The notes under the pieces: model-generated
What the model saw: only the letters and a program-made list of their open reading frames with translations
What the model was told of the DNA's origin: nothing
Databases searched by the model: none
Translations under genes and position numbers: made by a program
Shown: piece by piece, positions 9,806-31,781 of the stretch
Numbering within the stretch: the first letter of the stretch is position 1
How the letters are laid out: each line of letters starts with the position of its first letter
From: a virus
Reading direction: 5' to 3' (one strand)
DNA: 40,905 bases
Virus record (IMG/VR): IMGVR_UViG_3300030061_002112
Coordinates: 1 to 40,905 of that record

Positions 9806-11683
9806 ATGCCGTTAACTAAACTGCAAGTAGCACCTGGTATAGATAAACAAAATACCGAATATGGTGCAGAAGGCAAATGGGTAGATAGTGATAATGTACG
9901 TTTTCGTTATGGACAACCTGAAAAAATTGGTGGTTGGGAAAAAGTTTCAAACGACGCGCTCCTTGGCGCAACTCGCGCTATACTTACATGGTCCAGCAAT
10001 GCCGGCGTTAACTACGCTATGTACGGAACTAATAAAAAACTTTATGCATATTCTGAAGGAAGTTACGCAGATATAACACCGACGCGTGGAACAGGAAGCA
10101 TAACACAATTTGCAACGACCTCAGGATCAACAACTGTTACAGTTACAGATGCATCACACGGCGCATTAATTGGTGATCATGTTACTATTTCAAGTGTTAG
10201 TGGAGCTATTGGTGGAATTACGCAAGCCAATCTTCAAAACGAATTTGAAATATTAACAGCAGTTGATGCTAATACTTACACAATTGAATCACCAGCTGCA
10301 GCGTCATCTTCAGCAACAGGTGCAACAGCAACCGCAACTTATCAAATAAACTCAGGACCAGCTACATCAATTTATGGATATGGATGGGGTGCTAGTGTGT
10401 GGGATTCAACAGGTGATACCGATAAAGGTACATGGAATGTTACGCGTGAAGGATTAACAGGTCCACAAGAAGTAAAATTATCAGCAGAAAACTGGGCACT
10501 TGATAACTGGGGTGAAGATGTATTGGCACAAAAATTTGATGGTAGTTTATATTATTGGGATACATCATCAGGATTATCTAGTAATGTGGCGGCAAGAACA
10601 AATGTTTCTAACGCACCAACTAAATCTCGTTTTATGTTAGTATCAGGTGATGATCGTCATGTAATATGTTTTGGCACTGAAACAACAATAGGCACAACTA
10701 CAACACAAGATAATATGTTTATTCGTTGGTCAGATCAAGAAGACACAAATACATGGACACCAACTGCAACTAACACTGCTGGATCACAAAGACTTACTGC
10801 AGGAAATAAAATAAGCTCTGCTGTTAGATCTAGAGGTGCTATTCTTATTTGGACTGATACAGCATTATATCAAATGCAATTTATTGGTCCACCTTTTACT
10901 TTTGGATTTAAACAACTAGGTGATAACTGTGGCGCAGTAGGAAGTGATGCTGCCATTGATGTTAGTGGTATGACTTACTGGATGGGTAATGATTCATTCT
11001 TTACTTTTGATGGTGCAGTTAAAAAAATACCATGCAGTGTGCAAGATTATGTGTTTGATGATATAAATAAAAACGCTTTAAATGAGGTTTTTTGTTCCTC
11101 AAATTCAGATTTTAATGAAATTATATGGTTTTATCCATCAGCAGATTCATTACAAATAGATCGTCATGTGACTTATAATTATGCAGAAAATTTATGGTGC
11201 ACTGGATCATTATCTCGAAGCACGTGGGCTGATCGCGGTGTTTATCCAAATCCATACGCAACTGAGTTTGATTCAAGTGATACAACATCTACAATTTCAA
11301 CTATCTATGGTAATAAATCTGGACGTACTTTTGTTTATGCACACGAAGAAGGTGTTAATGACGCAGGTTCAGCAATGACAGCATACATTGAATCAGGTGA
11401 TATTGATCTTGGTGAAGGAGATAATTTATTATCTATCTCACGTTTTATACCTGATTTTAAAAATCAAGTTGGGAATGTTGATATAACAGTTAAGTCAAGA
11501 TCTTACCCAGCAACAACACAAACAACACACGGACCATTCGCAATTGCAACAACAACAGAAAAACAAGATACACGCATACGAGGAAGACAGCTTGCACTTC
11601 GTGTATCAAGTGATGCTATTGATGATAAATGGCGTTACGGCACAATGCGTTTTGATGGTAAACCTGACGGAATGAGAGGATAA
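9806..11683 (+). CDS. Large tail protein, nozzle/stabilisation (gp10-like) candidate
   Basis: A 625-aa protein beginning 'LTKLQVAPGIDKQNTEYG' and 'KWVDSDNVRFRYGQPEKIGG', a recognisable start for the long tail component of marine podoviruses, comparable to the P22 gp10 or nozzle class. Repeated blade-like patterns follow (YAMYGTNKKLYAYSEG, 'DRHVICFGTETTIG', 'GAILIWTDTALYQMQF'), suggesting a beta-propeller. An inserted Thr/Ser-rich domain (about residues 95-185, 'TVTVTDASHGALIGD') resembles an Ig-like insertion. The C-terminus ends in 'RGRQLALRVSSDAIDDKWR'. Together with the adaptor at 79 it would form the short tail. The functional label is by analogy. Confidence 0.6.
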   Translation: MPLTKLQVAPGIDKQNTEYGAEGKWVDSDNVRFRYGQPEKIGGWEKVSNDALLGATRAILTWSSNAGVNYAMYGTNKKLYAYSEGSYADITPTRGTGSITQFATTSGSTTVTVTDASHGALIGDHVTISSVSGAIGGITQANLQNEFEILTAVDANTYTIESPAAASSSATGATATATYQINSGPATSIYGYGWGASVWDSTGDTDKGTWNVTREGLTGPQEVKLSAENWALDNWGEDVLAQKFDGSLYYWDTSSGLSSNVAARTNVSNAPTKSRFMLVSGDDRHVICFGTETTIGTTTTQDNMFIRWSDQEDTNTWTPTATNTAGSQRLTAGNKISSAVRSRGAILIWTDTALYQMQFIGPPFTFGFKQLGDNCGAVGSDAAIDVSGMTYWMGNDSFFTFDGAVKKIPCSVQDYVFDDINKNALNEVFCSSNSDFNEIIWFYPSADSLQIDRHVTYNYAENLWCTGSLSRSTWADRGVYPNPYATEFDSSDTTSTISTIYGNKSGRTFVYAHEEGVNDAGSAMTAYIESGDIDLGEGDNLLSISRFIPDFKNQVGNVDITVKSRSYPATTQTTHGPFAIATTTEKQDTRIRGRQLALRVSSDAIDDKWRYGTMRFDGKPDGMRG

Positions 11684-23600: not shown

Positions 23601-24269
23601 GTGCAAATAATTAAGAAATATAATTACGCAGAACTAAAACGTCAAGATGGTGACTCTAGATTATATCTTACACCTGATGGGGACGCTCTACCGTCAGTTA
23701 CAACCATATTATCTAAAACGAAAGATAAAACGTTTTTAAAACAATGGCGTGCTAAGGTAGGGGAAGCAAATGCTGAAAAAATTATTCGTGATTCTGCTCA
23801 GATTGGCACCGCGCTCCACCTATATATAGAACGTTTAGTGAACGGAGAAAAGTACAAAGATTTAACAAAAATAGGCATACAAGCAGAAAAAATGGCTAAA
23901 AAAATTGTTGAAGAAGCATTTAAAGATATTACAGAAGTATGGGGATCCGAAGTACATTTATATAATCCTGGCAAATACGCAGGAACAGCAGATATGATTG
24001 CTATGTATAAAGGACGTCCATCTATTATAGATTTTAAACAAACAAATAGACCAAAGAAGCGTGAATGGATACAAGACTACCTCATGCAGCTTGCAGCATA
24101 CGCCCAGGCACACAACGCTTTATTTAACACAGAAATAGACCAAGGTGTAGTTCTTATGTGTTCTCGTGACCTCACATTTCAACGTTTTGAATTGACAGGT
24201 GAAAAATTTACACGTGCCGCAGACGCTTTTATGAAAAAGCTTGATTTATACAACGAAAGTATTATATAA
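23601..24269 (+). CDS. PD-(D/E)XK exonuclease (RecB/Cas4-like)
   Basis: A 222-aa nuclease starting at GTG. The motif order is that of RecB-type nucleases: 'LPSVTTILSKT' near the start, 'GTALHLYIERL' (motif I His), 'KYAGTADMIAMYKG' (Asp), 'SIIDFKQTN' (D-x-K core) and 'DYLMQLAAYAQAHN' (Q...Y motif). No Fe-S cysteine cluster of the Cas4 type is present. Phage proteins of this type digest DNA ends for recombination or host DNA breakdown. It lies 6 nt after the lysozyme stop and has no strong ribosome site. It closes the long rightward operon, and the promoter of the Hsp20 gene overlaps its 3' end. Confidence 0.8.
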   Translation: MQIIKKYNYAELKRQDGDSRLYLTPDGDALPSVTTILSKTKDKTFLKQWRAKVGEANAEKIIRDSAQIGTALHLYIERLVNGEKYKDLTKIGIQAEKMAKKIVEEAFKDITEVWGSEVHLYNPGKYAGTADMIAMYKGRPSIIDFKQTNRPKKREWIQDYLMQLAAYAQAHNALFNTEIDQGVVLMCSRDLTFQRFELTGEKFTRAADAFMKKLDLYNESII

Positions 24270-24270
24270 T
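24241..24270 (+). promoter_or_regulatory. Sigma70-type promoter for the Hsp20 gene
   Basis: TTGATT at 24241-24246 and a perfect TATAAT at 24265-24270 are 18 nt apart, predicting a start near 24277. The promoter sits inside the last codons of the exonuclease gene and faces the heat-shock gene, giving it a transcript of its own. Confidence 0.6.
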
Positions 24271-24277
24271 ACATATA

Positions 24278-24321
24278 GGATGCCATAATGGGTCCTTCAA
24301 TCTTGCTTTAATAGGAGGTTT
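24278..24321 (+). promoter_or_regulatory. ROSE-like RNA thermometer candidate in the Hsp20 leader
   Basis: The 47-nt leader can form two hairpins. Hairpin 1 (24278-24295) pairs GGATGCC with GGGTCC around an ATAAT loop, with a bulged G. Hairpin 2 (24298-24321) places TTGCT (24303-24307) opposite AGGA (24313-24316) across a TTAAT loop, with AATC/GGTT extending the stem. TTGCT facing AGGA, including a G opposite G, is the signature of ROSE thermometers that hide the ribosome site of alphaproteobacterial small heat-shock genes at low temperature. The AGGAGG ribosome site is fully inside hairpin 2. Pairing was worked out by eye; activity is inferred. Confidence 0.5.
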
Positions 24322-24323
24322 AT

Positions 24324-24719
24324 ATGAATGAGCTTGATATACTACGTAACCATTTTCTAGGTTACCACAACAACTTTTTTGATAATTTCAAAACAGTTTC
24401 TACTTACCCACCATACAACATAAGAGGCAACGAAGACAAAGGTGTCATTGAAATGGCGTTGGCAGGGTTCACCAAAGATGATTTAAACGTTGAGGTTAAA
24501 GATAATCTACTTACAATAACTGGTAAAAAGGAAAAGAAAGCCCAAGATGACATATGGCATAAAGGTATTTCTGAAAGAAATTTTGCCAAACGTTTTCAAT
24601 TACACGAACATGTGACAGTTGATGACGCAGATCTTAAAGATGGAATACTAACTGTGAATTATCACAGAGAAGTTCCAGAGTCTGAAAAACCTAAAACAAT
24701 AAAAATTAAATCCAATTAG
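24324..24719 (+). CDS. hsp20: Small heat-shock protein, Hsp20/IbpA family
   Basis: A 131-aa alpha-crystallin-type chaperone that would hold unfolding proteins during infection. After a short N-terminal arm comes the alpha-crystallin domain: 'YPPYNIRGNEDKGVIEMALA', 'GFTKDDLNVEVKDNLLTITG', 'ERNFAKRFQLHEHVTVDDAD', then 'LKDGILTVNYHREVPES', which carries the family G-I-L motif and the IbpA-like 'EVPE..KP' ending. The C-terminal 'KTIKIK' supplies the I-x-I type anchor. It has an AGGAGG site 5 nt from the ATG, its own promoter, and a thermometer-like leader. Its 3' end overlaps the opposite-strand helicase gene by 14 nt. Cyanophages are also known to carry hsp20. Confidence 0.92.
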   Translation: MNELDILRNHFLGYHNNFFDNFKTVSTYPPYNIRGNEDKGVIEMALAGFTKDDLNVEVKDNLLTITGKKEKKAQDDIWHKGISERNFAKRFQLHEHVTVDDADLKDGILTVNYHREVPESEKPKTIKIKSN

Positions 24720-28419: not shown

Positions 28420-29910
28420 GTGGAAGAATTCAAATCTATATTTGAAGGTTTAGACGTGGCTTATGGTCAGCATCAATCCGAAGGGAAGCGTGCTGACGGT
28501 AAGCAGGAAGGTAAATCTTATATTGTTAAAAAACTTGTTACAGATGACTTATGGCAGGCGCACCTTGATGGTGAAGGGCCTTCTTTGGGTATTATTCCTA
28601 TCATGGCTGATAATACATCCCGTTGGGGCTGTATTGATATTGATACTTATCCTATTGATTACAGAAAAATAATAAATAGTATTCGCACTTTACAATTACC
28701 CTTAGTGCCTTGCCGCTCCAAGAGTGGTGGATTACATATTTTTTTATTTCTTAAAAAACCAATCGCCGCAAAATTAATAAGAGCGAAGTTACGAGAGGCT
28801 GCATCAGCGTTAGGATACGCGGACGTAGAAGTATTTCCGAAACAATCAACCATATTAATAGAAAAAGGAGACTTAGGAAATTTTTTAAATCTTCCATATT
28901 ATAATGCCAAAAATTCAACTAGATATGCCTACAAAGATGATGGAACAGCAGCGTCATTGCTGGAGTTCATAGAACTATACAATAGATATGCATTAGATAA
29001 TATAGACAAAGTTGCAATCAAGGTATCTGATGAAGTCATACCTGATGGTCCTCCTTGTCTTCAACAATTATGTACACAAGGATTTCCAGAAGGCACACGC
29101 AACAATGGATTATTTAATATAGGAGTTTTTTTACGTAAATTAGATGCTGATAACTGGAAAGCATTATTAGAAAAACATAATCAACAATACATGAATCCAC
29201 CATTAGCTGCTTCTGAAGTAGTTATTGTACAAAAACAATTAGAGAAAAAAGATTATAATTATAGATGTAAGGAACCACCTATTAATTCTTATTGTAATAC
29301 ACAAGTGTGTAAAACGCGTAAACATGGAATTGGGGGTAATGGAACATCATTAGAATTTAGTGCATTAACTAAACTAGAAACAGATCCACCTGTGTGGATT
29401 CTTAATGTAGGTGATGCACGTATGGAATTACAAACAGATGAGTTGCAAATACAAACAAAGTTTCAAAAGAAATGTATGAATTCTTTGAATACTATGCCTC
29501 CTCTTGTAAAACAATCAGTATGGCAGGAAAATATAGAAAGATTATTTATTAATCTTATTAAAATTCCTGTTTCTGACGATGGGTCTGTGGCAGGTCAATT
29601 TGAAGCTTTCCTCCAGGAGTTTTGTACTGACCGTGCCCAGGCTCAGAATAGAGATGAATTATTACTACGTAAACCTTGGACAGAAAATGGTATTACATGG
29701 TTTAGATTAAAGGATCTTTTAGATTATCTTACTCGTAATAAATTTACTCATTATAATACAGGTCAACTTGTACAAGCTTTACGTAGATTAGATGGTAAGA
29801 GTGAGAAGTACAATCTTAAAGGTAGAACAGTTAGAGTGTGGGGTGTGCCTGCATACCAACAACAAGACTCAGCGTTTGATATAAAGGAGGTTGATGGTGC
29901 CCCATTTTAA
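28420..29910 (+). CDS. AEP-type DNA primase (TOTE-primase-like)
   Basis: A 496-aa protein starting at GTG with GGAGG 4 nt upstream. The catalytic domain of archaeo-eukaryotic primases is clear: 'WGCIDIDTYPIDY' (D73, D75, metal binding), 'CRSKSGGLHIFLFLKKP' (S-x-G-x-H, nucleotide binding), 'DVEVFPKQS' and 'LGNFLNLPYYN'. A PriCT-like helical part follows (FPEGTRNNGLFNIGVFLRK), then a Cys cluster, 'YRCKEPPINSYCNTQVCKT', that may bind zinc or an Fe-S cluster. The C-terminus is a separate winged-helix-like region (WFRLKDLLDYLTRNKFTHYN) and ends 'EVDGAPF', similar to the SSB tip. This replaces the TOPRIM primase of T7-type phages. The HNH gene overlaps its end. Confidence 0.85.
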   Translation: MEEFKSIFEGLDVAYGQHQSEGKRADGKQEGKSYIVKKLVTDDLWQAHLDGEGPSLGIIPIMADNTSRWGCIDIDTYPIDYRKIINSIRTLQLPLVPCRSKSGGLHIFLFLKKPIAAKLIRAKLREAASALGYADVEVFPKQSTILIEKGDLGNFLNLPYYNAKNSTRYAYKDDGTAASLLEFIELYNRYALDNIDKVAIKVSDEVIPDGPPCLQQLCTQGFPEGTRNNGLFNIGVFLRKLDADNWKALLEKHNQQYMNPPLAASEVVIVQKQLEKKDYNYRCKEPPINSYCNTQVCKTRKHGIGGNGTSLEFSALTKLETDPPVWILNVGDARMELQTDELQIQTKFQKKCMNSLNTMPPLVKQSVWQENIERLFINLIKIPVSDDGSVAGQFEAFLQEFCTDRAQAQNRDELLLRKPWTENGITWFRLKDLLDYLTRNKFTHYNTGQLVQALRRLDGKSEKYNLKGRTVRVWGVPAYQQQDSAFDIKEVDGAPF

Positions 29911-30292
29911 ATTTGGTGACGTAAGAGAAGATGGTTACATCTATGTTGGTAAAAGATATGGTAGAGAAGGCGGAGATTGGAGAAGCCCGGAAGCATATGA
30001 AAAATACAAAGAAAGAAATCGTATAAAGAAAAAGAAAAAATATGATCAAATAGCTAGTTTAGTAAACAAATATAAATTAGAAAGAGGATGCGCTCATTGT
30101 GGTTATAAAGATGAGCCAGTAGCTTTAGATTTTCATCACGAAAATAGAGAGGATAAAATTATAAATGTTTCTTCTCATTGGAAAACTAGTTGGAAACAAT
30201 ATGAAAAAATGAAGGAAGAAATGAAAAAATGCATAGTTCTTTGTTCTAACTGTCATAGAATAGAGGAGAAAAGGATTAGAAATGAAAACTAA
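29897..30292 (+). CDS. HNH endonuclease (free-standing, homing-type)
   Basis: A protein of about 131 aa with a zinc-binding HNH fold: 'GCAHCGYKDEPVALDFHHEN' (C-x2-C and the catalytic His pair) and 'CIVLCSNCHRIEEKR' (second C-x2-C with the closing His). The N-terminal half is basic (KYKERNRIKKKKKYDQIASL) and probably binds DNA. Starts at TTG 29891, ATG 29894 and GTG 29897 all follow one AAGGAGG; GTG at 29897 has the best spacing (6 nt). It overlaps primase by 14 nt and the helicase start by 11 nt, so it is wedged between two essential genes, a typical position for a mobile homing nuclease. Confidence 0.85.
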   Translation: MPHFKFGDVREDGYIYVGKRYGREGGDWRSPEAYEKYKERNRIKKKKKYDQIASLVNKYKLERGCAHCGYKDEPVALDFHHENREDKIINVSSHWKTSWKQYEKMKEEMKKCIVLCSNCHRIEEKRIRNEN

Positions 30293-31781
30293 AATTATAC
30301 TTGGTCCTCCTGGTACAGGAAAGACACACAACTTATTAAATTTAGTAGAACAAGAGTTAGCTAAGGGTACACCACCAGACCGTATTGCATTTGTAGCTTT
30401 TACAAAGAAAGCGGCTAGTGAAGCGAGGGACCGGGCAATGAAACAATTTAATTTGGAGGAACAACATCTTCCATATTTTAGAACTTTACATTCATTTGCA
30501 TTTCAGCAATTAGGATTAACAAAGTCAGAAGTTATGTCACGTGATAATTACAAAGAGTTTGGGCAAACATTTGGCATGGATCTAGGATCTGTATCTGATG
30601 GAGTAGATGCAGGTGGGGTATTTACAGTTGATAATCAACTTTTATCGGAAGTTAATTTAGCACGTATGAAATGTATGGTTTTAGAAAAACATTATAATAA
30701 TTCTAATTTAGATGTATCTTGGCACGCACTTTTAAGAGCAGAACGTTCTTTGGAAGAATTTAAAAAGAAAAAAGAAATATTAGATTTTACAGATATGATA
30801 GAAATGTACATTGAATCTGGAATGATTCCAAAGTTAGATGTAGTTTTTATAGATGAGGCACAAGATTTATGTGCTTTACAATGGCGTATGGTACATAAAA
30901 TTTGCCAAAATGCTAAACAAGTGTACATAAGTGGTGATGATGATCAGGCAATATATCGTTGGGCTGGTGCAGATGTAGATCATTTAATAAGATTAAGAGG
31001 TGAGAGAGAAGTGTTACAACAATCATACAGATGTTCAAAAGTTATACAAAATTGCTCACAAAGAATAATTGGACGTGTAAGAAATCGTATACCTAAAAGG
31101 TGGTATGGTACAAAAACTAGAGGTTTAGTACAATATCATGCTTATCCTGATAGTGTAAACGTGGGGAATGAAAATTGGCTTATAATGGCAAGAACTAATT
31201 ATTTACTTGATGAAATAGAGAGAGATATAAGATTACAGGGTTTATTTTATAAAAGAAATAATCGTTTACCTATATCACAAAAGCTATTAAACGCTACAGC
31301 TGCATGGAAAAAATTAAATGGTGGTGAACGAATAGAATTAACAGAAGTAAAAGATATATATTCTTATATGTCATCAGAAATAGGAATAGAACGTGGTCAC
31401 AAAAGTTTGAGAACAGCAAATCTAGAAAACTATGAGTTGGAAGATTTAGTCATGCATCATGGTTTACTTGTGGCGGGGAGACCTTGGGACGTAGCATTTG
31501 ATAAAGTTGGTACGCGTGATAAAGAGTTTTTAAGATCTATTGAAACAAGGAATAGAGATTTTACAAAGAGTGATCCCAAGATTCATTTAAGCACAATTCA
31601 TGGTGCTAAAGGAGGAGAAGCAGATAATGTAATGTTGCTTACAGACTTATCAAGAAAGTCACAAGAAGCAATGGAAAAGGATTCAGATGATGAATGCCGT
31701 GTGTTTTATGTAGCAGCCACACGTGCTCGTAACGAGCTACATGTAGTACAACCACAAAGAGATGGAGGGTTTATAATATGA
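30282..31781 (+). CDS. UvrD/PcrA-like SF1 helicase
   Basis: A 499-aa helicase. Motifs in order: Walker A 'GPPGTGKT' (residues 8-15), Ia 'FVAFTKKAASEARDRA', 'FRTLHSFAFQQLG', II 'DVVFIDEAQDLCALQW', III 'YISGDDDQAIYRWAGAD', IV 'LQQSYRCSKVIQN', V 'IHLSTIHGAKGGEADNVML' and VI 'RVFYVAATRARNELHVVQP'. It is shorter than bacterial UvrD (about 720 aa), lacking much of the 1B/2B insertions. No DnaB-type helicase is visible in the window, so this could be the replicative helicase; repair or recombination use is the alternative. It overlaps HNH upstream and the next ATG downstream (TATGA). Confidence 0.92.
   Translation: MKTKIILGPPGTGKTHNLLNLVEQELAKGTPPDRIAFVAFTKKAASEARDRAMKQFNLEEQHLPYFRTLHSFAFQQLGLTKSEVMSRDNYKEFGQTFGMDLGSVSDGVDAGGVFTVDNQLLSEVNLARMKCMVLEKHYNNSNLDVSWHALLRAERSLEEFKKKKEILDFTDMIEMYIESGMIPKLDVVFIDEAQDLCALQWRMVHKICQNAKQVYISGDDDQAIYRWAGADVDHLIRLRGEREVLQQSYRCSKVIQNCSQRIIGRVRNRIPKRWYGTKTRGLVQYHAYPDSVNVGNENWLIMARTNYLLDEIERDIRLQGLFYKRNNRLPISQKLLNATAAWKKLNGGERIELTEVKDIYSYMSSEIGIERGHKSLRTANLENYELEDLVMHHGLLVAGRPWDVAFDKVGTRDKEFLRSIETRNRDFTKSDPKIHLSTIHGAKGGEADNVMLLTDLSRKSQEAMEKDSDDECRVFYVAATRARNELHVVQPQRDGGFII

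Follow-up and report, generated by a model that had tools for sequence, protein, structure and literature searches.

The window, that is, the whole stretch of 40,905 nucleotides analysed here, is a 40.9-kb marine phage fragment whose database record is classed as virus, and it contains a tail-fibre gene similar to the tail-fibre genes of Pelagibacter phages. It shows an hsp20 gene whose neighbours are a PD-(D/E)XK nuclease gene, ending at 24269, and a convergent gene encoding an SNF2-type helicase. The phage replication region contains a primase-like gene (28420-29910; AEP-TOTE, E = 5e-13) followed by a gene encoding a UvrD/viral-type helicase (30282-31781). The hsp20 gene and the region upstream of it show the following features:

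24241-24246, plus strand: -35 hexamer TTGATT, within the 3' end of the nuclease gene; TTGACT in the relatives L004 and L005
24265-24270, plus strand: -10 hexamer TATAAT, overlapping the nuclease stop codon; unchanged in close relatives
24275-24322, plus strand: match to covariance model R1 (26.5 bits, E = 8.4e-6, filters off)
24277-24296, plus strand: hairpin I, AGGAU-[G]-CC-AUAAU-GG-GUCCU, with bulged G24282, from covariation
24299-24320, plus strand: hairpin II, AAUCUU-[G]-CU-UUAAU-AG-GAGGUU, covering the ribosome binding site, from covariation and register comparison
24303-24307, plus strand: ROSE motif UUGCU with bulged G24305, from the sequence and the motif definition of PMC3669281
24313-24318, plus strand: Shine-Dalgarno (SD) sequence AGGAGG, by sequence inspection
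24324-24719, plus strand: hsp20, encoding 131 aa with an alpha-crystallin domain and a C-terminal IKI (PF00011, E = 4.6e-19)

The two hexamers, 18 nucleotides apart, make up a sigma70-like promoter (24241-24270) with 10 of 12 matches. With a predicted transcript start near 24277 and the ATG at 24324 the leader has 47 nt, and only two linker bases lie between the hairpins. An earlier note on this DNA had described a separate promoter, a 47-nt leader and a first bulged hairpin, and all of them are present where it placed them; its reading of TTGCT facing the AGGA of AGGAGG, G24305 included, is correct as sequence. In 144 of 200 leaders of the family, against 24 of 196 for a control stretch, a -10 or T4-late-like box lies directly 5' of hairpin I; transcription therefore probably begins with hairpin I, which may protect the RNA.

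The element recurs upstream of phage hsp20 genes. Five scans of IMG/VR gave about 330 loci, and a TYGCT properly spaced from GGA and ATG is found in 295 of 344 phage hsp20 leaders (254 of the 298 unique ones), against 27 of 419 other SD-bearing genes on the same contigs, many of these 27 being TTGCTATAAT promoter boxes or coding sequence. No usable pattern came from searches based on highly divergent protein alignments. The closest relatives are six IMG/VR contigs with a complete leader, whose Hsp20 is 86-100% identical over the available part, and which retain the -10 hexamer, hairpin I and TTGCT..AGGAG. In one of them, L005 (86%), the loop of hairpin II is shorter, and a single SD change, GGAGG to GGAGA, gives the lower stem a U-A pair where the others have U-G. 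Phage Hsp20s that are only 35-49% identical have the same leader plan written in different letters: hairpin I is GAAGCA-U-G-CC-AUAA-GG-GUGUUUC in HTVC008M and UGACAA-U-G-CC-AUAA-GG-GUUGUCA in Mosig, followed in both by UUUGCUU..AAGGAGG. The element is absent from the hsp20 leaders of two Vibrio phages (L027 and L029) and of S-TIM54 (L020).

Two covariance models, whose E-values are approximate according to the tool itself, served to search for the element. Model R1 was made from 13 cyanophage-type leaders (alignment A8), none of them of the window lineage, and its second-best match in the window reaches only 10.3 bits (E = 0.29). Model R2 was made from 76 leaders, the window included, and it gives exactly one match, directly upstream of hsp20, in each of 15 out of 17 annotated phage genomes; five of these phages (HTVC115P, HTVC103P, C48C1, HTVC008M and Atu_ph07) are outside the model, and the two of the 17 genomes with no match are Vibrio phage PWH3a-P1 and cyanophage S-TIM54. 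The second-best R2 match in the window (11068-11124, 15.7 bits) lies within a structural gene and was taken as chance.

Hairpin I was anchored on its core alone (G, CC or CT, loop, GG or AG), which avoids circularity, before its outer arms were examined. On average, the 200 unique leaders form 4.71 of the first five outer pairs, against 2.90 when the 3' arms are swapped between leaders, with a maximum of 3.11 among 2000 swaps. The difference persists when each of the 95 distinct arm pairs is counted once (4.57 pairs versus 2.69 swapped). In an alignment fitted to the model, and hence biased toward the structure, 96.4% of cells are paired and 162 double changes are counted, versus 45 in shuffles; seven of the eight hairpin I pairs changed on both sides, and shifting the partner by one to three columns abolishes the signal. 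The bulged G of hairpin I is present in 75 of 75 aligned sequences and that of hairpin II in 76 of 76. The earlier note had named a lack of covariance or hairpin conservation in related phages as what would refute its reading; the outcome was the opposite, with strong covariation. The role of hairpin I in ROSE elements is unknown (PMC3669281), and a large natural alignment with a compensated stem and an invariant bulged G bears on it.

In hairpin II the pairing supported by comparison is U24307-A24313, C24306-G24314, U24304-G24315, U24303-A24316 and C24302-G24317, with G24305 out of the stem. In this bulge register the next pair down is intact in all 192 of the 192 leaders (C-G in 163, U-G in 25, G-C in three and A-U in one), and the following pair forms in 40% of leaders versus 22% when swapped. 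A pyrimidine opposite G invariably occupies the Y position of UYGCU, and the SD side is hardly free to vary. The earlier note had set a G opposite a G here; in that symmetric register the neighbouring pair is formed in 25% of leaders, against 192 of 192 for the bulge register, and the comparison supports a bulged G rather than a facing one. Pairing of UCCU (24293-24296) with the SD sequence was also considered and has a probability near 0. Two groups of leaders show a variant hairpin II that lacks UYGCU: one group reads AGACGCU..GGAGGUCU, the other AUAACGCU..GGAGGUUAU. These variants include L199, L203, L206, L208, L212, L213, L222, L227 and others, and L318, L322-L327 and L347; the lower stem enclosing the SD sequence differs by group and its complementarity is retained.

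No Rfam family was found in the window at gathering level, and the permissive matches (a 2dG-I riboswitch at 13.3 bits against 51, a snoRNA and an sRNA) were rejected as chance. The Rfam ROSE models, put forward in the earlier note as a check, do not reach their thresholds on the window leader: RF02523 ROSE_3 gives no match at E <= 10 (gathering score 43) and RF00435 ROSE gives no match (gathering score 45). On the relatives ROSE_3 gives 21-40 bits, with 34.1 bits for Melnitz (E = 0.0025) and 39.9 bits for L331 (E = 5.9e-5), against the gathering score of 43. The layout of ROSE_3 is like that of the element, with two hairpins, a first stem GAU-[G]-CC..GGGUC that includes the bulged G, and then UCGCU..AGGAG.

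ROSE-like thermometers are defined in PMC3669281 and PMC11342760, and most members lead small heat-shock genes. The window leader precedes such a gene, judged by the PF00011 match; its UUGCU (24303-24307) is imperfectly paired with the SD sequence (AGGA, 24313-24316) around a bulged G; and it has two hairpins by covariation, within the published range of two to four, with the SD sequence in the 3'-most. The short ROSE-like thermometers of Pseudomonas also have two hairpins, of which II melts and I is unaffected by temperature, and removal of the bulged G locks them (PMC3669281). The short ROSE element of Pseudomonas ibpA and the window element share a stable hairpin I, U(U/C)GCU opposite the SD sequence in hairpin II, a small heat-shock gene downstream and a start codon outside the stem (PMC3669281). 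Unlike it, the window element is phage-borne and AT-rich, its hairpins are 2 nt apart in a 47-nt leader, its hairpin II is predicted to be weaker, and its promoter is sigma70-like instead of sigma32. RF00435 ROSE and RF01832 ROSE_2 are like the window in having an SD hairpin with U(U/C)GCU and in leading small heat-shock genes, but these classical forms have three to four hairpins (PMC3669281). ROSE-G (PMC12857270) also sequesters the SD sequence and, unlike the window, shows CUGCU with facing G bulges; membership was rejected since the window motif is UUGCU and the symmetric register is unsupported at the neighbouring pair. The cyanobacterial hsp17 thermometer (PMC4477652) sequesters the SD sequence of a small heat-shock gene as well, but in a single hairpin that includes the start codon. 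The fourU type was rejected because UUGCU, and not UUUU, lies opposite AGGA. By its sequence and predicted structure, then, the window element is ROSE-like, nearest to Rfam ROSE_3 and the Pseudomonas short ROSE and below all Rfam thresholds; it is called ROSE-like, and not a member of RF02523, because it fits the published short-ROSE definition by sequence and structure and stays below the gathering score. Conservation and covariation lend good support to what the earlier note identified, namely a small heat-shock gene of a phage preceded by a ROSE-type leader.

The folding energy of the leader is not distinguishable from that of shuffles (z-score +0.26; 112 of 200 shuffles fold equally well). 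Taken alone, hairpin II has computed energies of -6.5, -5.0, -3.6 and -2.1 kcal/mol at 5, 15, 25 and 37 C, values that omit the non-standard ROSE contacts and whose drop in stability with heat is expected of any hairpin; its lower stem is computed to fray between 15 and 25 C. Folding of the leader across temperatures, suggested in the earlier note, gave a divided answer: both hairpins appear when the leader is folded by itself, but with 20 nt of coding sequence added the folding programs prefer other folds over hairpin II at every temperature. Predicted accessibility of the SD sequence is modestly lower, in medians, than for other phage genes, a weak difference (p about 0.03). The energies of hairpin II at 25 C (-3.6 kcal/mol) and 37 C (-2.1 kcal/mol) compare with -4.1 to -7.6 kcal/mol for the Pseudomonas hairpins (PMC3669281); a weaker hairpin II would suit a cooler set point than in Pseudomonas, which is a guess from the predicted energies.

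Translation of the phage Hsp20 is quite probably controlled by the leader acting as a short ROSE-like RNA thermometer with two hairpins, a reading drawn from sequence comparison. Hairpin I would form where the transcript begins and remain folded, and hairpin II would pair UUGCU with the SD sequence through a weak stem interrupted by the bulged G; warming would fray hairpin II and free AGGAGG for ribosome binding, and the chaperone would be produced when the infected cell is warm. We infer that the element folds in the cell, melts at physiological temperature and affects translation. The earlier note had proposed that Hsp20 is translated only when temperature rises or the structure is melted; neither the publications nor the computations covered here yielded a temperature response for the hsp20 leader of a phage.

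Another account, possible and clearly less probable than the thermometer, is that the leader is mainly a binding site for feedback by Hsp20 itself: free oligomers would block translation and unfolded protein would titrate them, so that aggregation would be sensed rather than heat, or both. Y28, R85, K89 and R90 of the window Hsp20 correspond to Y34, R93, R97 and K98 of E. coli IbpA, in a numbering that agrees with PMC10474464. According to that paper, IbpA from E. coli, Cedecea and Vibrio represses translation by binding the thermometer leader of its own gene; R93 is essential, position 34 must be aromatic and positions 97 and 98 must be basic. Among the phage Hsp20s encoded behind the element, the arginine is present in 251 of 256, the aromatic residue in 251 of 255 and a basic residue at the place of 97 in 234 of 256, and self-binding would also give hairpin I a reason for its conservation. 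Against this, a basic residue at the place of 98 is rare in phages (23 of 256), and the arginine is not diagnostic of self-binding because it is also present in the Hsp20 of S-TIM54, which lacks the element. A second layer of control by self-binding of Hsp20 is plausible by analogy with IbpA.

It is improbable that the conserved 5' hairpin and the weak SD hairpin serve only mRNA stability and a constant translation rate, inherited from a bacterial hsp20 and put to no regulatory use. Such a role would fit the position of hairpin I at the predicted 5' end, where hairpins can protect transcripts, and the capsid-maturation helper role proposed for cyanophage hsp20 (PMC3037559), for which no heat control is needed; passive inheritance, however, leaves unexplained the invariant G bulges of both hairpins and the compensated arms across several separate phage lineages. 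Chance resemblance to ROSE of an AT-rich leader beside a purine-rich ribosome site, with which the near-zero energy z-score and the empty Rfam search at gathering level would agree, is refuted by the covariance-model, arm-swap and per-genome specificity results and is exceedingly unlikely.

The same leader is found before chromosomal hsp20 genes in the SAR11 strain HIMB114 and its relatives, Bartonella, marine gammaproteobacteria, betaproteobacteria and a Sphingobacteriales genome. A sample of the HIMB114 order contains 97 genomes: 45 show one R2 match each, and 40 others have hsp20 and no match. All 45 matches are just upstream, on the same strand, of a PF00011 match (coordinates compared by eye). 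With stricter filters, seven of 190 genomes in a sample of the HIMB114 class show a match at E <= 0.001. The Sphingobacteriales genome, which belongs to the Bacteroidota, shows two R2 matches (C58:99256-99311 and C79:89961-90015). ROSE elements are best known from another phylum. The earlier note had called the pairing a hallmark of alphaproteobacteria; this is too narrow, since the layout is also present in gamma- and betaproteobacteria and Bacteroidota and has been published for Pseudomonas (PMC3669281). A tree of 73 Hsp20s requires seven switches between phage and bacterial carriers, of which well-supported branches force at least three; this indicates that hsp20 and its leader moved jointly between phages and bacteria more than once. 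The clade with the window Hsp20 (four rows, support 100/100) is near no bacterium in this tree.

The phage RNA thermometers named in the literature covered here are lambda cIII, SPbeta blyA and the sigma70 gene of a gut Caudoviricetes phage (PMC11182007). They share temperature-controlled translation in a phage leader with the thermometer proposed here, but the sigma70 candidate belongs to the fourU type, lambda cIII has two alternative structures, and PMC11182007 describes none of them as a ROSE element or as a control of small heat-shock genes. If the thermometer reading is true, it adds to these three, widens the range of ROSE elements beyond bacteria to hundreds of viruses, phages of cyanobacteria included, and ties infection outcome to water temperature. 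A search of the mostly open-access literature on phages, cyanophages and Pelagibacter gave no report of a ROSE element in a phage. Papers on cyanophage small heat-shock proteins make no mention of the leader (PMC3827213, PMC5028025). The core genes of T4-like cyanophages include hsp20 (PMC3037559), and pelagiphages have it too; capsid scaffolding has been suggested as a reason why phages keep it. The conserved ROSE leader points to control of hsp20 by heat or protein damage instead. A wider and rather doubtful proposal is that marine phages, cyanophages included, carry a mobile module, consisting of the ROSE leader and a self-binding Hsp20, that would read both temperature and protein aggregation: free Hsp20 would shut the leader and unfolded host or viral proteins would release it, the leader would have travelled together with hsp20, on at least two occasions, between phages and bacteria, and would have a set point tuned to sea temperature.

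Some phage loci show further features around the element. In L321 (389-687) and L330 (380-654) it is located before an ORF of 71-79 aa, phasin-like, that precedes hsp20, and it may control a two-gene operon there. In Prochlorococcus phage P-SSM2 (L021, 309-506) a strong manA RNA (RF01745, 181.6 bits) lies a few hundred bases upstream of hsp20. Upstream of hsp20 in S-PM2, a study listed ATTCAAACTCGCTTAAATA as a putative Pho box, but then found that PhoB does not bind there and that low phosphate evokes no response (PMC10976474); this sequence (L023, upstream of hsp20 at 983) contains UCGCU, the ROSE motif of hairpin II.
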